DNA from: Bolinopsis microptera
Taxonomy: Eukaryota > Ctenophora > Tentaculata > Lobata > Bolinopsidae
Assembly (NCBI RefSeq): GCF_026151205.1
Contig: NC_087072.1
Coordinates: forward strand, 9,111,669 to 9,175,668
DNA: 64,000 bases
Direction of reading: 5' to 3'
In this document: positions 4,100 through 63,309 of the stretch, piece by piece
Position numbering within the stretch: the stretch's first letter is position 1
Layout of the letters: each line of letters begins with the position of its first letter
The notes under the pieces: generated by a model
What the model saw: only the letters and a program-made list of their open reading frames with translations
Told to the model about the DNA's origin: nothing
The model's database searches: none
Made by a program: the position numbers and the translations under genes

Positions 4100-4409
4100 A
4101 AGGGCTCCCGTATGTTTGTTTTATGTGGGCAACATCGTAGAATACACACGCTATACACTATGGTTTCAGAGCGGATACTAATCTCATGCTGCAGTGTTAA
4201 TAAGCATGAAAGTACAAAAGGTAACAAAATCTTATCGACTACACAAATTCAGGTTATTAAATGATAAAACAACTTCTTATCTACTTCAGCCCTAATGTCA
4301 TAACTGATCACATATTATCTCACCACCTCCCTATATTTACAATATTTGACTGGGAAATTAGCAAGAACAAAAATATTCACAAGCACACTCAATATTATGA
4401 CTATTATAA
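4100..4409 (+). mobile_element. LINE fragment, 5' part (split by a DNA transposon)
   Basis: Plus-strand sequence just before 4,409 reads VITDHILSHHLPIFTIFDWE then QYYDYYK. This aligns with LINE-A ORF2 (GILTDRISHHSPIFQIFD then QYYDYNK), the end of its endonuclease domain with the catalytic SHH histidine. Similarity fades toward about 4,100 (a HES/HEK match near 4,205). The continuation lies at 6,635-7,395, after the inserted DNA transposon. Confidence 0.8.
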
Positions 4410-6630
4410 GGACACGTTCATTTGAGTTTGAGGATATTGGTAAATATAAGTGACCCTATTAAAAGGCACAGTGTAGTTGACTTTGTCACACTATGAAATT
4501 ACACAAACCCTTGATGGTTAGGATAATCGTCTCATCCTCTAGGCTAACTTTGTCACATAACGATATCTTAATCAGGTGATAAGATATCGCTTAAATACGG
4601 CCGGCACGGAAATGGTTACATTGTCACACTATAAACATGTGACAGAGTAAATATGGACCCCTTGCTGCTTTTTTTGACCAAATTTTTGAGTGTCCAGTTG
4701 ATTGGATGGGTACATATGACCATTACCTACATATTTGACGACTTTTTTCGTTAGATGGTGCACTCAGGTTTACTCTGTCACACATTTAGGAAAATTTGTG
4801 AAGAATGTTTAGGGCACCCTGATAAGCAATGCTGAGAAGTGTAGGTTAATTTGATGGTCTGGAAGTGCTAGGAATTTTTATTATATCATATGGTCGTAGG
4901 GAATTAAAACACGAAGGCACAATTAACAAGTTTACTTTGTCACATAATCTTGATGATATCTGAACATGTGTGGAATTGAACAAATGATGATATAACAGCT
5001 TAAACCCCTTATATTACGTACTATGGATCAAACAACACTGCTATTACCATGCACCAGACACATAAATCATAATCAGGTGGTATTATGTTAACAGTGTCAC
5101 AATTAAACTACCGCAACATGGTCAAAATAGGGTAATTTCGTCACAACAAAATTATTATAACTCTGTTAGGTCCTTGCTGGCAAAATAACTAGTTTATCGA
5201 AATTTTTTTGATGATAAAGTTACATAGTATTCTAATAGAGGTATAGTTCCTCAAAATAGGGGCAAGACATGTTCACTTTGTCACATCAGTTATTATAAGA
5301 GTTAAGTAATCGTCATCAGATTAACAGATATTTTCCGTAGTTTGGATCGATTAATATAGGCAACTAGGCAATAAAGCATCTTATGCCAATTTTAACACAC
5401 TATCTTAATATTGTTGGGGCAGGGAAAGTTAATTTTGTCACATTTTCAGTGTCTTTGACAAATTAATCTAAAATTGTTAAACTTGAGCTCTTATGTTCTG
5501 GACAATATTCTACCAATCGTTTCTGAAAGAATGCTGAATTCTAATAGAGTTATAGATCTTCAAAATAGGGGCAAGACATGTTTACTTTGTCACATCAGTT
5601 ATTATTAGAGTTAGGTAATCGTCATCACATTAACATATATTCTTTTGTAGTTTGGATTGATTTATATAGGTAATAAAGCAGCCTTTAGCCTATGCTAATT
5701 TTTACACACTATCTTGAAATTGTTGGGGCAGGAAAAGTTAATTTTGTCACATTTTTTGTGACTTTGACAAATTTAACTATTTAACCTAAAATTGTTAAAC
5801 TTGAGCTCTGATGTTCTGGACAATATTCTACCAATTTTTTGAAAGACTGTTGAATTCTAATATAGTTATAGAATAATATATAGATATTCAAAATAGGGAA
5901 CAAGACATGTTTACTTTGTCACATCAGTTATTATAAGAGTTATTATAAGAGAATATTTCATTCTATAACCTATTTACGATTTCGTATAATTTTTTGTGAC
6001 AATGTAAACGTCAACTGATCTTAACTTGCATCAACTACATTGTCATCATATAAAGTTTTTCCGCCTTTCAAACCAAGATCAGATATAAATAATTCGCCCA
6101 AAATTTAAAATTCCATATATTGTGACAGAATTAACATCATTTCCCAATAACCGAGTGCCTGTATTAGCTAACTATTCAAAACAACATATTTTAGGGCTAT
6201 GATTGGTATATCAACCATCAAATAATGAGTTAAAAGGGTTTTGAGGACACCTCACAGTAGAATAGAGGTATGGTATTCTGAGTGTGACAAAGTTACCCAA
6301 ATATTGCCTTGTAACCGTTCGATCCGTGCCCTTTAATCAATGTTGTATCATAATTGTTAGATTGACCTAATCTACTATATTTCAGACCAAGGAATGATAA
6401 TAAGACAACTGCAGTTAACTAAGTCACACAAAATGTGACATTTGAACCATTATAGTGCCTAACAACAATAGATTTTCTTTCTGAGCAGTACATATGGGAG
6501 TATGGGTAACGTGGCTAATGTTCTGAACTTCTGAACGTGCTAGGTTAATAGATGTCAAAATTAAGCCACTATCGTCGAAAACGCTATTATTTTTGTTTAC
6601 CAATATCCTCAAACTCAAATGAACGTGTCC
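4410..6630. mobile_element. Non-autonomous DNA transposon, GGACACGTTCA family, copy 1
   Basis: Perfect 35-bp terminal inverted repeats (4,410-4,444 and 6,596-6,630) begin GGACACGTTCA. The target duplication is ATAA (4,406-4,409 and 6,631-6,634). Removing the element and one ATAA restores the LINE codons for DYYKSN, matching DYNKPN of LINE-A, so the boundaries are secure. No transposase frame exists. The interior carries about 16 dispersed copies of a motif like GTTTACTTTGTCACA, for example at 4,476, 4,930, 5,271, 5,580 and 5,909. They are mostly forward up to about 5,920 and inverted at 5,996, 6,121 and 6,283. A unit of about 310 bp is tandemly repeated near 5,253-5,925. The superfamily is uncertain; 4-bp duplications occur in Sola, Chapaev and Ginger. 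Confidence 0.92.
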
Positions 6631-7395
6631 ATAAATCAAACACTGATAAATTTGCTGAAGTCTTGGGTAACAAACTAGACAAGAGGAAGTGTGTCAAACA
6701 GTATATATTCATTCAATTAAATCAAGTGATGCAATACAAACCAGACAATGAACCAATTATAGATTTTACTAACTTTCATGATATCTTTAAAAACAGCATT
6801 GACGAAACCTGCAAACTAGCTGTACCCAAAACCACTAAGCGCACTATCCAGAACAACCCCTAGATTACTGGCGGGATTATAGCCTCAGTAAACCACTGCC
6901 ATGGACTGTATGATGACTGGGCGAAAGTCAGGAAAGTTAAGTGTAAACAAGGCGAAACTGACACAAAAGGGGGCACATGCCTGTGTTCTATCTGCTGTAA
7001 TAAAAGATACCGTTATGATGACTACATATAGAAATATAGAAAGGCTCTAAAAAAGGTTCGTTAAAAGGCTGTATCTGAATATTATTCTGACAAGTTTCTT
7101 GAAACTCAGGGAAACTCCAAGAAAACCTGGGAACTGATAAATAAAATTCGTGGCAAACAGAAACGTGATATCAGACCTATATTTACCATAGACAATGAAA
7201 AGATAACTGATCGCAGAGTTATAGCTAATGAATTCAATATAAGTATTTTGTATCCCTAGCATCTAACCTTAATGCAGCCTACACAGAACTAGGAGAGATA
7301 CAAATAAATCAGCTTCCAAGTTTCTGTGACTTCTTACCTAAATCGAATAGAGCTAATATATATCTACATGACTGCTCACCTGAGGAGGCTAATAT
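6631..7395 (+). mobile_element. LINE fragment, 3' part
   Basis: Continues the LINE copy of 4,100-4,409. It includes FTNFHDIFKNSIDETCKL (LINE-A: FTTFHDIFKDCIDRTCKL), then AKVRKVKCKQGETDTKGGTC with a following CSICC cysteine cluster, then GNSKKTWELINKIRGKQ and DNEKITDRRVIANEFN. It stops near the start of the reverse-transcriptase domain at about 7,395. Several stops and frame changes show that it is dead. It belongs to the LINE-A family but is clearly diverged from it. Confidence 0.85.
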
Positions 7396-8598: not shown

Positions 8599-10584
8599 GT
8601 ACAATTTTTCCAATATTTTGATCAAAAATAATTTTTATTTGGATTTCAAAGTACGCACTACGCCGCGCAGTTAGAAATCGTAATTAAGAGATTTGAGATT
8701 TAATCATTATTTTCACAAGTGAGTCGATATATTGCAATCCCATCTCTTTTCGCTGCTGCTCACAGCATAGAGCTTCAATGCTCAAACCGTATATCTAGTT
8801 GATAGTAAAGTAGTATAGAAGTAGTAAAGTAGTATAGAAGCTGTTTCGTTGCACATCGAAATACAGATATTACTAAATGATCTTGAGAGGTTATTTAATG
8901 TAATCGATTTAGTGTTACTGCCTTTAAGCTGTGATGTGCTGGAGACTACTAAAACTTGTTCTAGTATAGAAAAGCACAGCGGATTTTGCTATCATGTTAC
9001 ACTTTTGTAGATCAGGATCGAATTTGAACGTATTACTCCCAAACAGATTATTTCAATCCTTCATTATATGGAAATATCGATAACCCATTCGAGCCTTTTT
9101 TTAAATGTGTTTATGTTTTTGAAAAAGTATATTATTGTGATACTTCCATGTATTAAATCGTTTAAATGGTATGGTAAAGAACAGTACACAGATACTTATT
9201 CTTTGATGCCCCGAAACACATTCCTAGCTCTAGATCTGCCTTACATTTCAATAATGGCTCTTTCATCACATTTGCTTGATAACTGCTGATTTGTAATGCT
9301 TAAAATTGATCCCACTCAGTTTGACTATCTTAGGTTAGCTGTAATATCGAACTCGACAGTAGCTTCCTCTGTCATGTCGGAGATCTCAGGAGACGACTGG
9401 GTATTTTGTGTCAAGAAGAGGTTAACCTCCCACTTAACACGAAACAAATTTGAATTTTGATCTTTATTACAGATTAAACATATCATATATAACCATAAAA
9501 GCCGCGCGTCGGCTGATTGCTTCAACTTGGATTGGTAGTAATTTCAGTTTACAGAAGCTGAAGGACGGCAGCTCAAAAGCCCCAGTGAACCATCGGAAAG
9601 ATCAAGGACTCGAGTGCCAATAGTGGCTTTTTCGAACCCATTTTCGCCGATTTGCTGTGGCCCAGATGAGCCGCGCCCTGCTGCTTAACGGCACATGGTG
9701 GTTTTTGTTTAAATACTTATTTAAATTTAAGCGATAATTCATTTGGTGGTTTACAGTTTTTGAATCATGTTCATCATTTATTTTTCGTTCAATTATCACG
9801 TTTTTACAATTCAGTATGCATAGTCAACATTGTTGAGGCAACCAGCTTCCGCAGTTCAATAATTGGAGACCGAAAAATATAAATTGATCGAAATTTACAA
9901 TTCATCGTTATCAAATATAGTCAATAATAATCTTGATTCCATTTAGTACATAATAAGTTGGTTTTATTCTCTTGCAACACTACTGCACAACAAAAACTGC
10001 GCCTGTCCACCAGCAACAGCGCAGTCATAGGTGTGCAGCCAAAGCTAGGCCACACACCCATGGCCGCGCCGGTTAAACAACTCTATATTCAATCGTTATA
10101 TTAGGAAATTTTAGTTAATTCTTTGATCACTCTTCAGTGCCGGTGGGCAGGCGCCCCGCATAGTTGGCTTTCCAAATTTACAGTCTCAAGAAAGCCGATA
10201 CGGTAATCGAGTCCCGGAGCAGAACACACATTTAGAAAATTGAAAAATTAAAATTAAAATAACAAATTAGAAATTAAAAATTAAAAATTACATGACTACG
10301 AGAGTCCAGACAGGCGACAAACACACAAACCGGACGAAGAGAGGACCCACTGCTGAATTCGACATATAATGAATTGTTGAAAACATAATGATTCCTACAC
10401 TAATATGATCTTGAGGCATGCCCTGCATGTACTGTGCGAGTACATTGTAAATAATATCTGATAAGATGGGCCAAAAATAGCGGCACAGCGCGCAAAATGC
10501 GCGGCGTGACCGCCGAAATTTTATACTTTAGACATTAACATTTCAATCGGCTTTAGCGCTCAGCATATCTTCATTGAGTAGACA

Positions 10585-12498
10585 TTAGAATTTCAGTTCG
10601 TTGGAATCGAAGTTCAGTTCACACCAATCTATTTCGTCGTACCTGGACTGCATGCCGAGTAACTCCTTTTTTATTGTGGATTTCACAAGGTTCGTTGATG
10701 TAGAGAAGTTGATATTGCTAGCAGTGTTTCTACAATCGTTCCACATTTTTGTCGATTGATATATGAAGGAGGTGGATGGGGTTGGAGTGATGAATCGATC
10801 AGCACGTCTTGATGATCTGTTAAATAGATTTAGGAGTGGGACTGGGGATTCTAATTTATTGATTTTGAACATTTCCAATAAACATGTGTGTTTGAACAAA
10901 CTGTGTATGGTTAGTAAACCATTTTTCTTAAATAGCGGTTTTGTGTGCTGTTTTTCATAGAAGTCGCTTCCTAATTTTTGCTTGTCTTTACTTCGTGTTC
11001 TAGCACAAGTTCTAAACTTTTCTAAGTACGCCTCTCGGTTACCAAATAGTATTCTAACACATTTCTTCTGAGTGATAAATATTGGTTCAAGCCTGTTGTT
11101 ACTAAGGCCACCCCATACTGATATCCCAAATCGCAAGTGTGATTCAAATAGTGTGTAGTACAGTTCTTTGTAGAGTTTTTCTGGAATAATGTGCCGTATT
11201 CTACAAATTTTCCCACTTTCACATTTCAGCTTTGTGTTGAGCGACCGTATATGAGCATCCCATTTAAGCTGATCATCAATAATAACACCAAGAAACTTCA
11301 CCTTTTTGACTTGCTTTATTACTACATTGTTTAGAGTAAGTACGTGTTCTTCTTCATTATGTTCTACCTTGCTTTTTCTATTCGTTGGTTTAAAGTGAAT
11401 GTAACAGCATTTCTTAATGTTAATATGCAGGAGATTACATTTCATATACAGTTGTACCAGTTTGAGAATTTGGTTTGCTCGTTCATATAACTTTATCTTA
11501 CATTCATCCGCGACAAATATATTTGTATCGTCAGCAAATAGAATGAACTTGCCTAGTTCAGTTGCCCTATATAGGTCGTTGATATAAATAATAAATAGTA
11601 ACGGACCAAGACAAGATCCCTGGGGTACTCCAAAGAGAACTGGAAGCTTGTCAGACTCTTCTCCTAGGACCGAGACGTATTGATATCTATTAGAGAGATA
11701 ACTAGCAATGAGTTTGTTGGCATTGCCTCGAATTCCGTAATTATCTAGCTTACTCAGTAATTTGTCAGCTGAGATGGTATCGAATGCTTTGCTTAGATCA
11801 ATGAATATTCCGAGCACGTGCTGCTTTTTATTAAGGCATGATTCTATATAATTCACTGAGAAATTCAGGGCATGACTAGTAGAGTGATTTTTACGGAATC
11901 CATACTGATTTTCATAGATCATATTTTGTGACTGGAAAAAGCTGTATAGCCTACTATATATAATTTTCTCGAATAACTTACCAAATACGGCTAAGGTAGA
12001 GACTGGTCTATAGTTTTCAAGTAATTCTTCATTTTCTTTCTTGTATATGGGACTGATCCTGCCAATCTTTAAATCGTCCGGGAATATTCCCTCCTTCAAA
12101 CATTCATTGTATAGTACAGATAATAGGGGGGCGATAATTCTGGATGACGCTTTTACAACATGTATTGGGATATCAGACGATTTGCCATTTTTCAATTCTG
12201 ATATTATTTTACATACTTCATCGATTGTACAATCATGCATGTAAATACTGGTCGTGTTGGATTTTGGTAGGTAGTCATAGATACTGGGGATGCCATTAAT
12301 TAATAGTTCGCCGATTTCATTGTATGCCTCGTTAAGATTAGAAGCTAGGGAGACAAAGTACTTATTAAACTCATTAGCTATTACCCTACGATTAGTAATT
12401 TTTTCATTATTGATAGTAAATAGAGGTTTGGTTTGTCGTTTTCGTTTACCCCGTATTTGGTTAATTAATTCCCACGTCTTTTTACTGTTTCCGTGCAA
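10585..12498 (-). CDS. LINE-A ORF2, reverse transcriptase part
   Basis: Non-LTR reverse transcriptase, which copies the element RNA at a nicked target. Visible motifs are FGKLFEKIIYSRLYSFF, NQYGFRKNHST, GIFIDLSKAFDTI (catalytic Asp), GVPQGSCLGPLLFIIYINDL, and FADDTNIF (the two catalytic Asp), then the thumb motif KFLGVIIDDQLKWDAHI. The C-terminus (MWNDCRNTASNINFSTSTNL to NSNELKF) has no RNase H or zinc knuckle. The frame overlaps the endonuclease frame at 12,465-12,498, where the reading frame changes, so as it stands the copy cannot make one continuous ORF2 protein. The first Met of this piece (MHGNSKKTWELI) lies within the linker between the domains and is not a true start. Confidence 0.92.
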   Translation of the reverse strand: MHGNSKKTWELINQIRGKRKRQTKPLFTINNEKITNRRVIANEFNKYFVSLASNLNEAYNEIGELLINGIPSIYDYLPKSNTTSIYMHDCTIDEVCKIISELKNGKSSDIPIHVVKASSRIIAPLLSVLYNECLKEGIFPDDLKIGRISPIYKKENEELLENYRPVSTLAVFGKLFEKIIYSRLYSFFQSQNMIYENQYGFRKNHSTSHALNFSVNYIESCLNKKQHVLGIFIDLSKAFDTISADKLLSKLDNYGIRGNANKLIASYLSNRYQYVSVLGEESDKLPVLFGVPQGSCLGPLLFIIYINDLYRATELGKFILFADDTNIFVADECKIKLYERANQILKLVQLYMKCNLLHINIKKCCYIHFKPTNRKSKVEHNEEEHVLTLNNVVIKQVKKVKFLGVIIDDQLKWDAHIRSLNTKLKCESGKICRIRHIIPEKLYKELYYTLFESHLRFGISVWGGLSNNRLEPIFITQKKCVRILFGNREAYLEKFRTCARTRSKDKQKLGSDFYEKQHTKPLFKKNGLLTIHSLFKHTCLLEMFKINKLESPVPLLNLFNRSSRRADRFITPTPSTSFIYQSTKMWNDCRNTASNINFSTSTNLVKSTIKKELLGMQSRYDEIDWCELNFDSNELKF

Positions 12499-13982
12499 CT
12501 CTGCAAATTTTCCACCATAGAACTTAGATTGAGCATTGCGGCGATCTTTTTGACCTTCCGCCTGCAGTCACTGTATTTTTTATACTTGTCATGTTTTGAG
12601 CAACATATTGGGCATTGGCATGTCCCCCCTTTATTTTCAATTTCCCCAAATTTACATTTAACTTTTCTGACCTTTACCCATTTATCGTAAAGTTCGTGCT
12701 GATATGAAATTTTGCCCACAAGGTCTGGTGTAATCCATGGGTTGTTCAGTGCTGTTCTTTTAGAGCATTTAGGGGTTTCTAACTTACAAGTTCTATCTAT
12801 ACAGTCCTTAAATATGTCGTGAAATGTTGTAAAATTGTCGATAACATTATTATTGAGATCATGTTCCAGAGTCTGTAAAAAAGCTTTTACATTCGGTTTG
12901 TTGTAATCATAATACTGTTTGTATTTCAGGTCAATTCTGCTAGAGTCCAAGTTTCTATCAAAGATTTGGAAGATGGGTGAGTGGTGTGATATACGGTCAG
13001 TCAGTATTCCAGAAGCTACTATACTCTCTACGTCGTTAGTTATTATGTTATCAATACAGGATGCTTTGCAGCCTGGTTTCTCATGTGTTGCTAACGAAAT
13101 TAGGGGGAAAAATCCTTTACTTAATAGTATTTCTTCATAGCGTTGTACGATTGTGCTATTCTTATCGTGTAAATCAATGTTAAAATCACCCGCTAGGTAA
13201 CTACACTTGGGGAGACTGTCAAGGATGTCAGAGAGTTCAGATAGTGCAACATTGACATTACCACTTGGAGGACGGTACATTACACCAACTGTTACTGGGG
13301 AAGTTGTACTACTTACGGCCACAAAAAGAGTTTCTAAATGTTCAGTGATATGGGATACATTGCCGTTTACTCTGGCACTAAGAGTGTCACAAACATAGAG
13401 AGCCACTCCAGTGCCCTTTTTTTTATCTGGTATTGTGTTTTGGTAGAAACTGTTGTATCCAGTTAATTGATACAAACTGCTGGATTCAGGACCTTCATTT
13501 GTTTCCGCTAAGGCTATGATCGAGAATTTCTTGGTGAGCCTATGGGATTCAATAGCGAAAGTGTCGAAATTTGACTTATTGCCGTCGATGTTTTGGAAGA
13601 GAAGCGATGAAAATTCATTCATTTGATTATCTAGTGCTTTGTTGAATTCCTTGACATTGTACGATACGCAGTTATTTAGTATTTGATCTACTTTTATGAT
13701 AGTGTCATCCACTTCACTACTTTCAATATCACTTAAATTAGTGCATGCAAGTCGAAATGGATTGTAACGAATAACTGCTAAATGTACGCACTTGGGACAG
13801 TAAAAATCGTCAGATAATGTGTCATTGTTAATGGATTTGGTATAGCACTTATGGTGCATTGGGCAGTCGCATTCACAGCATTCAACAATGAATTGTCCTA
13901 CGTTAATGAACTTCGCACAGACTAGGCATACCTCTTTACTCAGGGGAGTCAGAATGGCTGGTAACCATCCTGGTGTCGAGAC
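12465..13982 (-). CDS. LINE-A ORF2, PHD finger and endonuclease part
   Basis: The frame opens after a stop at 13,983-13,985 and overlaps the end of ORF1 by about 34 nt in the -1 frame. It has no ATG before the Met at 13,859, which lies inside a zinc finger. Reading from the open end gives VCLVCAKF, then ECCECDCPMHHKC, then FYCPKC. That is the Cys/His spacing of a PHD-type finger, so translation must begin without AUG, by frameshift or by reinitiation. The APE-type endonuclease follows: LFQNIDGN, IIALAETNEG, KGTGVALYV, GVMYRPPSGN, LAGDFNIDL, SCIDNIIT and RISHHSPIF (terminal catalytic His). It nicks the DNA target for priming. A CPICC cysteine cluster lies in the linker after the nuclease. Confidence 0.85.
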   Translation of the reverse strand, partial: VSTPGWLPAILTPLSKEVCLVCAKFINVGQFIVECCECDCPMHHKCYTKSINNDTLSDDFYCPKCVHLAVIRYNPFRLACTNLSDIESSEVDDTIIKVDQILNNCVSYNVKEFNKALDNQMNEFSSLLFQNIDGNKSNFDTFAIESHRLTKKFSIIALAETNEGPESSSLYQLTGYNSFYQNTIPDKKKGTGVALYVCDTLSARVNGNVSHITEHLETLFVAVSSTTSPVTVGVMYRPPSGNVNVALSELSDILDSLPKCSYLAGDFNIDLHDKNSTIVQRYEEILLSKGFFPLISLATHEKPGCKASCIDNIITNDVESIVASGILTDRISHHSPIFQIFDRNLDSSRIDLKYKQYYDYNKPNVKAFLQTLEHDLNNNVIDNFTTFHDIFKDCIDRTCKLETPKCSKRTALNNPWITPDLVGKISYQHELYDKWVKVRKVKCKFGEIENKGGTCQCPICCSKHDKYKKYSDCRRKVKKIAAMLNLSSMVENLQSCTETVKRRGN

Positions 13983-16177
13983 TCAGCAGCAGTAGTAGAA
14001 CCCGTCCCACTCAACACGTTCCGATATGAGCGTCCATCAACCTCGTCTGTTCTCCTTTTCCTTCTATCAACTCCTCCATTCATTCTAAGAAGCACTGTGT
14101 TACGAATCAAAGTGCCTAGTTTAGCTGTACCCCTCCAGTTAAGGTGGAGATAATCTGGTCGCTGGTCTCGGCCGATGTTTCTGGAGAACTGTTGGCTAAG
14201 AAGCCCAGCATCATCACAGAACCCACCGAACCCATCAACGTAAGTCACACCAAAATTTGAAGGGATCAGCTCTGTCAGAATAAGGCGGTTAAAGCAAACA
14301 ACTTTTCTATTCAGTTCAGCAAGCTTTGTAGGCAGGGCTGGACAAACATATACATGTGCCTTAGGGTTAATAGCATGAATTTTCTCAATCTTTTTAATTA
14401 AGGGAATAAATACATTTCGTTTAATATCAGCTGTATTCTTGATCTCAGGTTTTTTAAGATCATTAATCGCACACATCAAAACAACGTTACGATAACCACA
14501 TGTGACATATGGGTCAATCTGGTCAACCACTGGTGCAAAATATTGCCTCCCAGGGAACCATTGTCCAAACGATTTCCTGGCATCTGACCCAAACTTAAGC
14601 CCCCCTGTATGACTGTCTCCTATGATGCACGTAGAGTTCTTGTTCCTGAAGCTAACTGAACGAAAAGTTAGGCTGTATCTGACCCCACCAGTTATTGCCC
14701 CATCCATGATACAGTGGCTGTAATACTCTTGGCTACTTCGTGTCATGCGATACATGGATCTTGGAACACATGGGTGGTCAAGGACTATATCATCCGTCTT
14801 CTTGTCAAAGAATTTGATGCTGCACTGGCCTCCGATGGACACAGTGAAAATTTCGGATTCGGGGTGGATGGTGGCTTCATCATCCGAATGTTTTGGTAGG
14901 GAGCCATCCTCTTTGAAGCGGTTGATCAGCAGACTATTGATCTTCGGTTTCTCACCACTACAGAATGCCCCATTGATTTTGTCCATCAGTTTGGAGAAGC
15001 TGGTTGACTCTAGCTGACCATTGGGTGACTTGGAGCCATTATACTTGTATGGTTCTCCCAGAGAATACACAGCACGAGCTCCTTCCACAACAAAATCCTC
15101 GTCAAGTGATTGACAGGCAAGGAGGAGAAGATCCTGCTCTTCTGTGGTGATAAACTCTTCTATAGCGCCTACAACTGGTTCTTCTCTTGATTTGAGATGC
15201 TCATTAGCTGTTAGGTCTGGGCCAGGGGCAAGTGAAGAATTGGTAAGTTGGGCATTTAAATGGTCAGAAGAAGCCAAAGAATTTTGCTCAAGAGTGTTCA
15301 AAGACTGTCTAATGGCTGTTAGCTCCTGATTCGTCTCCAGAGACTGCTTGGAATTTAGCTCCTGCAGATTCTTCTCTATTTTTTCCATGAGATCGTTGGT
15401 CTTGGAGGAAGATTGAGCACTTACTTGAGGAGTAGAAAAGTCCTGCAGTTGCTTGTTCAAAACTTTAATCTGTTCTGTTAGGCCACTATCAGACTCAGAA
15501 ACCTTTCCGAGTGTAGAGTCAACTGAAGTTTTCAGCTGCTTTAGATCTCCTTCCATCACTTCAACCCATGCTGGAGCAGTGCCCTTGTCACTTACCAGTA
15601 GGTGCTTGATATGGAGGTCAAGGTTCTGGATGGCAGCAATGCTGTCGTTTAGACTGTCAAAGTCAACCTTTGCAAGCTTTTCACCAAAAGCTGTGATGGT
15701 ATTAAGCTTCTCTGTGGCAATAGCAGTCTCACACTGACTGTTAGATTTTTGAAGTGTCAGAGTGTTCCTACACACATAACACACATCTTCAGCAGTTTCG
15801 AATGTGGGGATTGGTGAAACCAAACAAAAAGGGCAGTGCCAATTGGTCATGCTGTTGACATTTTTCTGGTTGAGTCCATTCATAGTTAGACAGTCTATGT
15901 GCCAATATTGCTTGCACTTTACACAGTCAATCTTCCATGACGATATTGACTTACTACATGGACATTTCGTCTTGTCCCTGTGTGAACTGTCAAACTTTGG
16001 GGGTGTTACATCACTGTCTACAACAATAGTTTCACAAGATACATCCTTTCCCTTCGCCTCTGGTCCTGGAGTGTTGTTCTTGATTCGGGACTTTGCCTTT
16101 TTGTCCGCAGGGGAAGGAATCCGAGACATATTGGTGATAGATGAGGCTCTCTTGTTACTCTTGTTGTTGTCACCCAT
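13949..16177 (-). CDS. LINE-A ORF1: PHD finger, AlkB-like dioxygenase, SGNH esterase
   Basis: The start is the ATG at 16,177 (MGDNNKSNKR); a TTG lies three codons upstream. The product is 742 residues; numbers below count from that TTG. A PHD-like finger spans about 75-121 (KCPCSKS, DCVKCKQYWHIDC, WHCPFC). Helical, coiled-coil-like sequence follows to about 310. An AlkB-like 2-oxoglutarate/Fe(II) domain spans about 345-510: YKYNGSK, then HSD at 433-435, a distal His in YYSHCIM (491), and RYSLTFR (503-509). These are the HxD...H iron ligands and the RxS/TFR signature. An SGNH hydrolase follows: GDSH at 523-526, IND at 574-576, and DYLH at 678-681. CR1 ORF1 proteins are known to carry PHD and esterase domains and to bind RNA; the AlkB insert is unusual. 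Possible roles are RNA demethylation and lipid or acyl ester cleavage (inference). Confidence 0.9.
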   Translation of the reverse strand: MGDNNKSNKRASSITNMSRIPSPADKKAKSRIKNNTPGPEAKGKDVSCETIVVDSDVTPPKFDSSHRDKTKCPCSKSISSWKIDCVKCKQYWHIDCLTMNGLNQKNVNSMTNWHCPFCLVSPIPTFETAEDVCYVCRNTLTLQKSNSQCETAIATEKLNTITAFGEKLAKVDFDSLNDSIAAIQNLDLHIKHLLVSDKGTAPAWVEVMEGDLKQLKTSVDSTLGKVSESDSGLTEQIKVLNKQLQDFSTPQVSAQSSSKTNDLMEKIEKNLQELNSKQSLETNQELTAIRQSLNTLEQNSLASSDHLNAQLTNSSLAPGPDLTANEHLKSREEPVVGAIEEFITTEEQDLLLLACQSLDEDFVVEGARAVYSLGEPYKYNGSKSPNGQLESTSFSKLMDKINGAFCSGEKPKINSLLINRFKEDGSLPKHSDDEATIHPESEIFTVSIGGQCSIKFFDKKTDDIVLDHPCVPRSMYRMTRSSQEYYSHCIMDGAITGGVRYSLTFRSVSFRNKNSTCIIGDSHTGGLKFGSDARKSFGQWFPGRQYFAPVVDQIDPYVTCGYRNVVLMCAINDLKKPEIKNTADIKRNVFIPLIKKIEKIHAINPKAHVYVCPALPTKLAELNRKVVCFNRLILTELIPSNFGVTYVDGFGGFCDDAGLLSQQFSRNIGRDQRPDYLHLNWRGTAKLGTLIRNTVLLRMNGGVDRRKRRTDEVDGRSYRNVLSGTGSTTAAESRHQDGYQPF

Positions 16178-16284
16178 ACTCAGCAAACGTTAAAACAAAC
16201 AGCCAGCAAAAGTCAAAACAATCAGCTGTTAAGGCAACGTGTAAACTTACTGCACCCCTTTGAGGGAATTACGACATACTTTCC

Positions 16285-16326
16285 CTCAAATTATTTGTTA
16301 TATAGCAGCGTTGAAAGTATTAAAAC
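16285..16326 (-). promoter_or_regulatory. 42-nt leader at the 5' end of LINE-A (copy A)
   Basis: Minus strand begins GTTTTAATACTTTCAAC, passes through CTATATAACAAATAATTT and ends GAG. It matches 31,738-31,779 (LINE-B 5' end) with two differences, and 40,462-40,502 (before an LTR-element gag). Sequence beyond both ends differs among copies. It may be a spliced leader fixed by retrotransposition, or a promoter module with a TATATAA box. Confidence 0.75.
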
Positions 16327-24649: not shown

Positions 24650-24926
24650 TTAGACGCTACGCTAGTCACTTCTATCTTTACTCCACAGATCACCATCACA
24701 AAGACGTTGAGACCAGTTCATCACCCCGAACCCATCCTCCTCTTTCATTTATCATTCAACAAAAATGTGGAACGACTGTCGAAAAATTGACAGTTTGATA
24801 AGCTTTACTAAGTCAACGAACTTAGTTAAAGTAACACTGAAAAGTGAGCTACTCAAGATACAGTCCAGGTACGAAGAATTAGAATGGACAGAATTAAACT
24901 TCGATAAGAATGAGCTTGTATTTTAA
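24650..24926 (+). mobile_element. 3' end of a LINE-A relative
   Basis: The plus strand reads QFITPNPSSSFIYHSTKMWN then STNLVKVTLKSELLKIQSRY and ends NFDKNELVF, stop at 24,924-24,926. LINE-A ORF2 ends RFITPTPSTSFIYQSTKMWN ... NFDSNELKF. The copy is 5'-truncated with stops upstream. It shows that a second, diverged lineage of LINE-A exists nearby. The sister copy ends at 63,309. Confidence 0.85.
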
Positions 24927-26387: not shown

Positions 26388-29378
26388 TCACATGGCTAGA
26401 GTGTAGAAATAGTCGAAACTATTGTTTATTTCATAGGATGAGACTCCTTGAATTACATCTGACATAAATTTAGATTTCATACATTGTGAGAATTTTACAC
26501 TACATTCTATAGTCCTTATGTTCTCTGGAATTGTATTCCAGCATTTTGCACCTAAATATGTAAAGGTTTTGTGTGTTCTGGATTTGTGAATATAAAGGTT
26601 GCACCTCTCAGCATCACGTGATCCTCCGGATACATAAGAAAATTTATCTGTGAATGATGATGGTGCAGCCTCATTAAGAATTTTATACATATACGTTGAT
26701 AGATGGAGTTGTCTTCTTAAGTGTAAGGGTAACCACTTCATATTTCGATATACATTTACTGATGGTTCCTGCCAATGAACATCCAGAGCAATTTTTGCTA
26801 CTTTCTTGTATAATATATCAAGAGAATTAAGTTTGGTTTTGGCAGCCCTACACCATATTATATCCAGGTAGTCAAATTGGGGGAGCATAAGAGCATTTAC
26901 AAACATTTTTCTATATTTCAGTGGAAGAAGATTTTTCGACCTGTATAATGCCCCTATTCTTTTAGCAATTTTTGTTTTCACATAATCAATATGGTCTTGA
27001 AAGTTCAATAAATTGTCTATCATGAGGCCTAAATATTTTTGAGATTTAGTTTCTTCTATAAATAGGCATTCTTTTTCCAAATCCAGAGGGATTGATAACG
27101 TGTCCAGATTAGGTGATCTATCAAATACAATAAATGAAGATTTTGCAGCATTTAGTCTCAGCTTGTTGATTCTAAGCCATTCATACACAATTTTCATATC
27201 CTTAATTACATTCTCATATATGCCTCGGGAAATGTTATCGAAATATAGTGCACTGTCATCTGCAAATAAGTAAACAGTAGATTGTGTGCAATTTCTACTG
27301 AGATCATTTATGAATAAACTAAATAGAATTGGTCCTAATATGCTACCCTGTGGCACACCTGTTTTAACAGGGAGTGATGTGCTTACATTACCACGTATTT
27401 TGGTGTGCTGCTTTCTGTCCCCAAGGTAGCTTTTGAACCACTTTATGACAAAGCCATCAACTCCATAATACTTAAGTTTTTTTAATAAAATATTATGGCT
27501 TACTGTGTCAAAGGCCTTTTTAATATCTAAGAATACAATTGCAGGTTTATTCTGTGATTCCTTAGACGTAAATATTTTATCAAATAGATTAAGCATTAGA
27601 AAAGTGGTGGAATGATCTTTTCTAAATCCAAACTGATGGTTGGTAAGCAGTTTATTTGTTTCAACATACTCTGTAAGCTGTTGGTTAACAAAATATTCTA
27701 TGCATTTTCCAAGTAGGGGGAGTATGGATATTGGCCGGTAGTTATTTGGATCATTAGGGTCACCAGTTTTAAGAATTGGAGTGACTGATGCGATTTTACA
27801 TGCCAACGGCATTGTTCCACTTTTCATACTAAGGTTTATAATATGAGCTACTGGATCGATGATTTGGGGAATAATATACTTATATACTTTAATGGGCATG
27901 ATATCGTTAATCGATTTATCTGATGGTATACTGAGTATATATTCTTTTACTTGTTCAACAGTCACCTCTTCGAATTCAGAGAGTTTACACTCTGTTGGAG
28001 GCGGCATATATTCTAGGAAGTCGTCTGAATCCTTTTCCATAATCGATTCTTGTATTATTGTACCAACTGTGGCAAAATGCAGGTTAACTCCGTTAACATT
28101 TAAGTTGCTTGGGGAAGAGCTACTTATTTTTCCAGGTAAGTTTGAAGCATGTTTGATAGTTTTCCAAATACCTTTCAAATCGTTTTTTGCACTTTTCACA
28201 GTAAGGTCCTGAACAATATTTGTACGTCTGTTTTCTTTGGATAATTTTGTCACATAGTTTCTTTGGGGACGATAGTTATCCCACGAAGTAGAGCATTTCT
28301 TATGTAGTTCACTTTTTCTGCATTTACATATTCCATTAATACAATTACACTTGGATTTGTTTAATTGTCCTAAACATTTTTTATACTTTCTGAAAAGCAT
28401 CTTCTTCTTCCGTATTTCTGCCAACAGTTCTTTAGAGGGATTACAAAGAAAGTTACTATTACATTTTATCTGTTTAGGTGGACAGTAATTATCATACGAT
28501 TCCTGGATGTGATGATTAAGTCCATCTAGGGCATGGTCTACATTAGTACAGCTTAGAATATTACTGTAGTTACTGCAGGATCCCAGAAAATAGCCTAAGG
28601 CTTTTAGATTGTTTAAGGAGTGGTCTCTGATAAGGACCTTCTGGAATTTACTAGCTTTGTTTACTTTAAAGTCGAGAACACATTTGAGAGCTTGGTGATC
28701 TCCTATTCTATCATCAAGTACTTTACACTCTATGAAATTAGAGTAACAGTTAGTCATGACAACATCTATTGTGCTCTGCGTTATTCTACCATCTAAGTTT
28801 GCAACTCTAGTAATTCCCGTAACAGTCTGTATCATTCCAAAGAGCTTCATTGTTATATCTAACTTTTTATAATCTAGATCAGATAAAGAGTTTTGGTTAA
28901 CATTAACATCGCCAATCCATATTACTTTCTTACCTTGAAGTTTCATCATACATTCAGTCATATAATCAAGGAAAGTATCTAGGTGACAAAAGTTTTGTGA
29001 TCTGTAGAAGCAGCAAATGTAAAGATTGGCATCCTTGAGCTGTATCCATATAGCTTCGATTTTAGAAATATCAGAGTAGGTTATATCTAAATTGAGTAAT
29101 TTGTGGTTAACATTTTGGTTGATCAATATACCACACCCTCCTCTTCCTCTATCGTTAGGTCTATCACACCTTATAAAATCAAAGTTTAAGGGGAAGTTAA
29201 GTGTACTAGTGTCTATATCAGATTTAAGGTTTGTCTCATTAATTCCAATTATGTCAAGCTTTTCGCGAAATATTAGCTCCTGTAGTTCGAGAGTTTTTGC
29301 CAGATTAGTCAGGCCACCCTGTATATTACATAGACCAAGAGAGAGATTATCGTTTATTGAGGTACGAATAAGGTTAAA
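26388..29378 (-). CDS. LINE-B ORF2: endonuclease and reverse transcriptase
   Basis: The frame is open from 29,378 (after a stop at 29,379-29,381) to 26,388, about 996 residues. No ATG, GTG or TTG precedes codon 85 (29,126), which already lies inside the endonuclease, so the start is non-canonical or coupled to ORF1. The nuclease begins LSLGLCNIQGGL, KLDIIGINETNL, RGGCGILIN, then IWIGDVNVN, STIDVVMTN and DDRIGDHQALKC (catalytic DH). Reverse transcriptase: LPLLGKCIEYFVN, HQFGFRKDHSTT, AIVFLDIKKAFDTVSHNILL, GVPQGSILGPILFSLFINDL, YLFADDSALYF and KYLGLMIDN. The C-terminus ends with a YLGAKCWNTIPENI motif. No RNase H. A CNCINGICKCRK cluster sits in the linker. Confidence 0.93.
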   Translation of the reverse strand, partial: FNLIRTSINDNLSLGLCNIQGGLTNLAKTLELQELIFREKLDIIGINETNLKSDIDTSTLNFPLNFDFIRCDRPNDRGRGGCGILINQNVNHKLLNLDITYSDISKIEAIWIQLKDANLYICCFYRSQNFCHLDTFLDYMTECMMKLQGKKVIWIGDVNVNQNSLSDLDYKKLDITMKLFGMIQTVTGITRVANLDGRITQSTIDVVMTNCYSNFIECKVLDDRIGDHQALKCVLDFKVNKASKFQKVLIRDHSLNNLKALGYFLGSCSNYSNILSCTNVDHALDGLNHHIQESYDNYCPPKQIKCNSNFLCNPSKELLAEIRKKKMLFRKYKKCLGQLNKSKCNCINGICKCRKSELHKKCSTSWDNYRPQRNYVTKLSKENRRTNIVQDLTVKSAKNDLKGIWKTIKHASNLPGKISSSSPSNLNVNGVNLHFATVGTIIQESIMEKDSDDFLEYMPPPTECKLSEFEEVTVEQVKEYILSIPSDKSINDIMPIKVYKYIIPQIIDPVAHIINLSMKSGTMPLACKIASVTPILKTGDPNDPNNYRPISILPLLGKCIEYFVNQQLTEYVETNKLLTNHQFGFRKDHSTTFLMLNLFDKIFTSKESQNKPAIVFLDIKKAFDTVSHNILLKKLKYYGVDGFVIKWFKSYLGDRKQHTKIRGNVSTSLPVKTGVPQGSILGPILFSLFINDLSRNCTQSTVYLFADDSALYFDNISRGIYENVIKDMKIVYEWLRINKLRLNAAKSSFIVFDRSPNLDTLSIPLDLEKECLFIEETKSQKYLGLMIDNLLNFQDHIDYVKTKIAKRIGALYRSKNLLPLKYRKMFVNALMLPQFDYLDIIWCRAAKTKLNSLDILYKKVAKIALDVHWQEPSVNVYRNMKWLPLHLRRQLHLSTYMYKILNEAAPSSFTDKFSYVSGGSRDAERCNLYIHKSRTHKTFTYLGAKCWNTIPENIRTIECSVKFSQCMKSKFMSDVIQGVSSYEINNSFDYFYTLAM

Positions 29379-31737: not shown

Positions 31738-31779
31738 CTCAAATTATTTGTTATATAGTAGTGTTGAAAGTATTAAAAC
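31738..31779 (-). promoter_or_regulatory. 42-nt leader, exact 5' terminus of LINE-B (copy B)
   Basis: The empty-site comparison places the LINE-B 5' end at 31,779, the first base of the shared leader. The leader ends in AATTTGAG, followed by GTATGACC. The shared block is thus the very 5' end of the transposed RNA, as expected of a spliced leader or of a transcript whose start lies at the top of the block. Confidence 0.85.
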
Positions 31780-63029: not shown

Positions 63030-63309
63030 CTGTTAGACGCTACGCTAGTCACTTCTATCTTTACTCCACAGATCACCATCACAAAGACGTTCAGACCAGT
63101 TCATCACCCCGAACCCATCCTCCTCTTTCATTTATCATTCAACAAAAATGTGGAACGACTGTCGAAAAATTGACAGTTTGATAAGCTTTACTAAGTCAAC
63201 GAACTTAGTTAAAGTAACACTGAAAAGTGAGCTACTCAAGATACAGTCCAGGTACGAAGAATTAGAATGGACAGAATTAAACTTCGATAAGAATGAGCTT
63301 GTATTTTAA
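63030..63309 (+). mobile_element. 3' end of a LINE-A relative, sister copy
   Basis: Reads SSSFIYHSTKMWNDCRKID to NFDKNELVF as in the first copy. 5'-truncated and dead. Confidence 0.85.

Follow-up and report, generated by a model that had tools for sequence, protein, structure and literature searches.

We analysed a 64,000-nucleotide (nt) stretch of the genome of the comb jelly Bolinopsis microptera (contig NC_087072.1, positions 9,111,669 to 9,175,668; hereafter the window) and identified on its minus strand a long interspersed nuclear element (LINE) whose first open reading frame (ORF1) encodes a PHD-like zinc finger, a probable coiled coil, an AlkB-type Fe(II)/2-oxoglutarate (2OG) dioxygenase domain and an SGNH esterase domain. 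The AlkB-SGNH pair is common to this element and to a second, divergent LINE in the window; we refer to the two and their relatives as the first and second families. This is a real, conserved and new variant of LINE ORF1, and from it we infer a mechanism.

The first-pass annotation, made from the sequence alone, had read this frame as a LINE ORF1 with PHD, AlkB and SGNH parts, and profiles, predicted models and conserved residues confirm that observation. The Pfam family 2OG-FeII_Oxy_2 matches residues 363-506 above its cut-off (E 6.8e-11; 43.2 versus 31.2 bits), and in the predicted model residues 328-510 adopt an AlkB-type double-stranded beta-helix (jelly-roll) fold. Lipase_GDSL_2 matches residues 545-683 below its cut-off (E 0.00097; 20.1 versus 32.9 bits); the catalytic S, N, D and H are present, and the model has an SGNH fold. 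The PHD match also falls below its cut-off (E=0.11; 13 versus 24 bits). In an alignment of 29 rows (ORF1 and 28 homologues, 31-87% identical to it), the finger residues C72, C74, C85, C88, H93 and C96 are kept in 28, and those of an extra CxxC part (C115, C118, C133 and C136) in all 29. Residues 139-301 form long helices of medium to low predicted local distance difference test (pLDDT) scores, which suggest a coiled coil. ORF1 has the esterase-type (Type IV) layout, in which a coiled coil (here from the model helices) precedes an esterase in a LINE.

The residues expected of a working dioxygenase are retained throughout the first family. The iron ligands H430 and D432 occur in 29/29 rows and H488 in 28 (one gap); N419 and E434, the glutamate of the HxDxE motif, are invariant. 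Arginine R500 is present in 28 rows (one gap) and R506 in 27 (two gaps), the gaps lying in truncated rows. By analogy with ALKBH5, N419, R500 and R506 would contact 2OG, and they and the iron ligands match the ALKBH5 residues listed in PMC9289625 (papers are cited by PubMed Central [PMC] number). The SGNH residues S522 and N572 are kept in 27 rows (two gaps), and D675 and H678 in 25 (four gaps). Among 21 genomic copies, chosen by length from 30 first-family loci and free of in-frame stops in the part used, the five AlkB residues are present in all and S522 in 20. In the second family, HxDxE...H...RxSxTxR was found in 69 of 72 homologues (P0049 lacks RxSxTxR, P0084 lacks HxDxE and P0092 lacks both), and HxDxE was matched in 71 of 73 proteins.

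Ratios of nonsynonymous to synonymous substitution (dN/dS, Nei-Gojobori) were low over the AlkB domain. Seven of 11 first-family pairs, which share sequences, gave 0.166, 0.162, 0.173, 0.169, 0.220, 0.139 and 0.130, the last two at dS above 1; the other four had 0-2 changes or saturated dS. Two second-family pairs gave about 0.12 (0.205/1.73) and 0.26 (0.029/0.111). Judged by these substitution patterns, the domain is under purifying selection. The first-pass annotation had named two outcomes that would refute it, the lack of a meaningful AlkB hit and an HxD...H triad not conserved among other copies; neither was observed, the triad being kept in other copies and in both families.

Homologues with a named organism are from Mnemiopsis leidyi, apart from one B. 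microptera protein 87% identical to ORF1. In a tree of AlkB domains, 53 LINE rows and 26 short rows lie together on one side of a branch with a support of 88 (Shimodaira-Hasegawa-like approximate likelihood ratio test, SH-aLRT). The tree was built by a quick method from 128 of 175 usable rows (9 of 184 domain hits were dropped as too short), with the second family thinned to 24, a midpoint root and several long branches; it fits, without proving, a single capture of AlkB by LINEs. In two short proteins, P0165 and P0177, the AlkB-like part is an HSDNE stretch, after which both have a common non-AlkB tail, possibly reflecting AlkB in another repeat family.

The ends of the window copy (Table 1) are the points where its alignment with the C5, C9 and C4 copies stops and the flanks diverge. 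DNA identity to these copies is 98.1-99.8% per aligned piece; over the ORF1 half it is 99.7-99.8% for the C5 and C9 copies, whose ORF1 differs from that of the window at a single residue, position 593. Such near-identity of the copies indicates recent movement. The C5 copy is 5'-shortened, an insert is present within the 3' part of the C9 copy, and the C9 and C4 copies end in two ATTTGTTTCTCTAAAAA-like units. A non-poly(A) tail is usual for LINEs of the CR1 and L2 clades. A cursory look at the aligned copy ends revealed no target-site duplications. A chimaera or assembly artefact is ruled out, because complete ORF1 copies lie on many contigs of the assembly (264,652,675 bases in 232 contigs searched), two of them a single residue apart from that of the window, and in other sequence records as well.

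Table 1. Features of the two AlkB-encoding LINEs in the window (UTR, untranslated region; SL, spliced leader)
Feature	Position	Strand	Remarks
Whole first LINE copy, ~6.9 kb	9441..16326	minus	5' end 16325/16326, 3' end near 9441
SL-like 5' end of first LINE, variant of leader a	16285..16326	minus	likeness to leader of second LINE
5' UTR of first LINE, downstream of leader	16178..16284	minus	between leader and ORF1 ATG
ORF1, 742 aa + stop	13949..16177	minus	ATG at 16177, stop 13949-13951; 28 homologues
PHD-like zinc finger + extra CxxC, residues 72-136	15770..15964	minus	conserved Cys/His pattern
Helical, probably coiled-coil region, residues 139-301	15275..15763	minus	from predicted model
AlkB-type Fe(II)/2OG dioxygenase domain, residues 328-510	14648..15196	minus	iron ligands H430, D432, H488
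SGNH esterase domain, residues 511-700	14078..14647	minus	S522, N572, D675, H678
ORF2 frame	10585..13952	minus	would start at CTG overlapping ORF1 stop; frame change near 12465-12498 breaks window copy
Second PHD-like finger, ORF2 N-terminus	13788..13928	minus	Pfam PHD E=4.8e-5, 23.7 bits (cut-off 24)
Apurinic-type endonuclease domain, ORF2	13158..13664	minus	Pfam Exo_endo_phos E=1.4e-4, 22.1 bits (cut-off 24.5)
Reverse transcriptase domain, ORF2	11278..12042	minus	Pfam RVT_1 E=8.2e-37
3' UTR of first LINE	9441..10584	minus	short non-poly(A) terminal unit, ATTTGTTTCTCTAAAAA-like
ORF1 of second LINE, 639 aa	29771..31690	minus	helical region, AlkB 189-365, SGNH 450-639
ORF2 of second LINE, endonuclease-like + reverse transcriptase	26388..29126	minus	29% identical to first ORF2 over reverse transcriptase part
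SL a, 5' end of second LINE	31738..31779	minus	equals exon of tandem SL RNA genes

Three other fetched copies of the first LINE have a stop-free ORF2 stretch of 1131-1132 codons. A Pfam scan of ORF2 listed no RNase H family at E up to 1. In the window copy, the first half of the second PHD-like finger lies upstream of that frame's first ATG. The ORF2 ATG overlaps or adjoins the ORF1 stop in related subfamilies (L008, L012, L014, L027, L028 and L030), and the window subfamily has CTG (C-TGA, 13949-13952) instead; stop-restart coupling of the two frames with a non-AUG start is possible. Some ORF1 copies look mosaic: L001 and L008 have a dS of 0 over the PHD part and saturated dS over SGNH, and L001 and L004 a dS of 0.18 over PHD and 0.02 over SGNH, a pattern that suggests that recombination or a template switch took place close to the AlkB domain. 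The second LINE ORF1 matches 2OG-FeII_Oxy_2 at 82.7 bits (cut-off 31.2) and has no Pfam PHD match. Fragments of related LINE ORF2s lie at window positions 4288-4410, 6723-7390, 24695-24923 and 63078-63306. Rfam had no match up to E 0.5 over positions 9000-33000, and none of the 11 viral-contig stretches that fit our search pattern encodes a relative.

To which class does the LINE AlkB belong? A profile built from seven AlkB domains of these LINEs (six from the first family, one from the second) had 44 hits among solved structures, led by ALKBH2 (E 2.5e-12) and ALKBH3 (5.7e-11), followed by ALKBH8 (3.5e-7) and E. coli AlkB (3e-6). ALKBH5 (2.2e-5) and ALKBH6 (0.086) were weaker, and FTO was absent from the 44. 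The second-family domain alone has ALKBH3 as its top match (3e-10), the LINE HSDNE aligns with the HSDDE of ALKBH3, and the models most resemble DNA-bound ALKBH2 and ALKBH3. By sequence, and less clearly by fold, the LINE domain is nearer to ALKBH2 and ALKBH3 than to ALKBH5, the eraser of N6-methyladenosine (m6A); its closest similarity is neither to ALKBH5 nor to FTO, since ALKBH2 and ALKBH3 score better. It shares with the two human proteins the fold (in models), the iron and 2OG residues and, with ALKBH3, the HSDDE-type signature; they differ in being cellular repair enzymes, 17-25% identical to it and not fused to a LINE protein. ALKBH2 and ALKBH3 remove N1-methyladenosine (m1A) and 3-methylcytidine (m3C) from DNA, and ALKBH3, whose substrates are these bases in RNA and single-stranded DNA, does so from RNA too (PMC11431407). 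At 17-25% identity, such similarity makes an m1A/m3C-type substrate likelier than m6A.

Esterase-type LINE ORF1 proteins are already known (PMC3905857, PMC4120745). Those of the CR1/L2 clade, such as zebrafish ZfL2-1, have the same order of coiled coil and SGNH domain, an endonuclease and reverse transcriptase in ORF2, and a similar non-poly(A) tail; the window LINE differs in its zinc fingers and in the AlkB domain that separates coiled coil from esterase. Neither AlkB nor oxygenase is a word used in the main text of the cited esterase-type ORF1 paper. The first-pass annotation knew of no such combination, and for LINEs this stands, as we found no report of AlkB in LINE ORF1 in the open-access PMC literature; an ALKBH5-like domain is, however, known from a Ty3/Gypsy element of the orchid Phalaenopsis (PMC9289625). 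That retroelement likewise encodes an AlkB-type RNA demethylase, but it is a long terminal repeat (LTR) element with the ALKBH5-like domain in a separate ORF, whereas here the domain is part of LINE ORF1, nearer to ALKBH2/3 and conserved across diverged families. Plant RNA viruses (Alpha-/Betaflexiviridae and Closteroviridae; via PMC9289625) are also selfish RNA-based replicons with AlkB, for which RNA repair has been postulated; the setting there is viral. Retrotransposons of dinoflagellates and charophytes have likewise captured nucleic acid-modifying enzymes, cytosine methyltransferases (PMC5890265), which add methyl groups to DNA, whereas the LINE AlkB is predicted to remove them.

We predict that the AlkB domain strips methyl groups from the LINE's own RNA or fresh cDNA, a reading to which we assign a probability of about 45%. 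ORF1 protein would multimerise via its coiled coil on LINE RNA, and the ALKBH2/3-like domain, using Fe(II), O2 and 2OG, would remove Watson-Crick-face adducts of the m1A and m3C type that would otherwise stop the element's own reverse transcriptase on a 6.9-kb template. We favour adducts that block base pairing and reverse transcription over m6A because the nearest relatives, ALKBH2 and ALKBH3, are removers of m1A and m3C. The esterase may act at membranes, as proposed for ZfL2-1, and the zinc fingers may aid nuclear or chromatin targeting.

Other roles for the domain have to be weighed against template repair. The first-pass annotation had suggested that, by demethylating its own RNA, the LINE may counter host m6A or m1A marks or alkylation damage; this interpretation is partly supported, m6A being the weaker half of it. 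Erasure of m6A, letting LINE RNA escape host decay or silencing, has been put forward as the mechanism in the orchid Gypsy element, whose AlkB ORF demethylates m6A in vitro (PMC9289625), and the LINE profile does still match ALKBH5. We consider it unlikely, because ALKBH2/3 are nearer and because m6A promotes, and ALKBH5 suppresses, retrotransposition of human L1 (PMC7873242). The substrate could instead be DNA, either alkylated single-stranded cDNA or target DNA repaired at integration, or an adenine mark removed from the insertion site. ALKBH2 and ALKBH3 are DNA repair enzymes (PMC11431407), and it is their DNA-bound structures that the models match best. Set against this alternative, which we also consider unlikely, is the general role of LINE ORF1 proteins, which package RNA.

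A catalytically spare AlkB fold, serving as a structural or RNA-binding module, could fill a gap in esterase-type ORF1 proteins, which have no structural RNA-binding domain (PMC3905857). The retention of iron ligands and 2OG arginines in all ungapped rows, down to 31% identity, together with low dN/dS, makes this quite unlikely. We regard as very unlikely an enzyme that acts on methylated cap or leader nucleotides acquired from the host spliced leader (see below), so that the reverse transcriptase copies to the very 5' end: inserts do include nearly the whole leader, but we found nothing on cap or base methylation of ctenophore leaders. Least plausible of all is an ALKBH4-like hydroxylase or demethylase acting on protein, with the PHD finger on chromatin. 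The PHD-like fingers in ORF1 and ORF2 would suit such a role; ALKBH4, however, is absent from the 44 profile hits, though perhaps for want of a solved structure, and the second LINE retains AlkB without a Pfam PHD match.

Both LINEs also begin with what appears to be a host sequence. Their 5' ends in the window are 95% identical over 44 nt, and the one on the second LINE, leader a, recurs in tandem arrays with repeats of 591 nt on C3 and about 855-860 nt on C5, and others on C13. It is followed by GTAAG and, where the sequence was inspected (on C3 and at one place each on C1 and C2), by a ATCTTTTGG-like site. With their GT donor and Sm-like site, these arrays are, as judged from sequence, spliced-leader (SL) RNA genes, and leader a is similar to the one published for the ctenophore Hormiphora (PMC8527503). 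Leader b is found in a separate 434-nt array, where GTAAG and a TCTTTTGG site are likewise present; no source gene was traced for leader c. Arrays of two leader types lie at 13.51-13.55 Mb on C3, 21.34-21.35 Mb on C5, 14.49-14.55 Mb on C1, and 12.78-12.95 and 15.24-15.25 Mb on C13, those on C5 and C13 being known from pattern positions only. Rfam was run on four SL-bearing loci: in three of them SmY was matched at the SL genes with scores short of the gathering threshold, and there were other sub-threshold matches and two tRNAs in L055.

In the second family, 20 loci represent 19 copies (L046 and L047 are one copy), and 17 of these begin with a leader: leader a in eight, b in six and c in three. 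Of the other two, L039 has none and L042 starts within ORF1. Sixteen of the 17 join the leader to a common GTATGACC; in L043 (leader b) the junction follows AAAG, 12 bases further on. Ten copies whose ORF1 proteins are 98-99% alike to that of the window copy, itself included, jointly carry all three leaders. Eleven of the 30 first-family loci contain the start of their subfamily's 5' UTR; in ten of them an a-type leader immediately precedes this start, with TTCAG interposed in eight and nothing of the kind in two, including the window copy, and L009 has leader b. In a sister subfamily, L027 and L030 carry leader a and L028 leader c. Because nearly identical copies begin with different host leaders at one junction, the RNA that was reverse transcribed had probably been trans-spliced, and trans-spliced RNA would be the template of the LINE copies. 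Dinoflagellate retrogenes with SL remnants (PMC12014239) are also retro-inserted copies that start with a leader; those are host genes, whereas these are autonomous animal LINEs. We found no report of an animal LINE with a 5' spliced leader in the open-access PMC literature.

Combining these lines, we tentatively suggest that comb jellies may host a large, young LINE lineage with its own RNA-repair enzyme and a host-borrowed 5' end, though we hold this fuller picture to be doubtful. In each round, LINE RNA would receive one of the several host leaders by trans-splicing, ORF1 protein would package it, AlkB would clear methyl adducts that block reverse transcription, and the copy would be inserted with the leader as its new 5' end. 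Since AG forms the end of the leader, the inserted copy would re-create its own acceptor site. Several observations weigh against parts of this cycle. The GCGCTGC leader variant carried by the window copy occurs on several LINE types (26 exact copies of its common form), but no copy in the assembly bears GTAAG, and the five places with one mismatch to it all read GTATG. Because no SL RNA gene with this variant was found, though it is present on several LINE types, the window copy's leader may be inherited rather than newly trans-spliced. No leader was found in the 260 bases upstream of L002, L010, L015, L029 and L039, which also fits 5' truncation, and L006, L011 and L013 start, like L042, within ORF1 (the remaining first-family loci that do so were scanned for leader a only). 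We counted 15 five-prime and 104 three-prime LINE ends; with no AlkB-less LINE from the same genome for comparison, this full-length fraction decides nothing on template repair and lends it no help.

The mixed leaders on nearly identical copies naturally document which RNA served as the template for reverse transcription. A LINE ORF1 protein, thought of as a packaging protein, here contains a complete-looking predicted nucleic acid demethylase kept by selection across families. Two questions thereby become open to test: does methylation of bases in the RNA template, whether it arises from damage or from host enzymes, restrict the copying of LINEs, and has AlkB been acquired convergently by RNA-based parasites as unlike as viruses of plants, a plant LTR element and a LINE of an animal? 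If methyl groups are indeed removed from the template, a LINE would have a means of preserving a legible template for its own copying.

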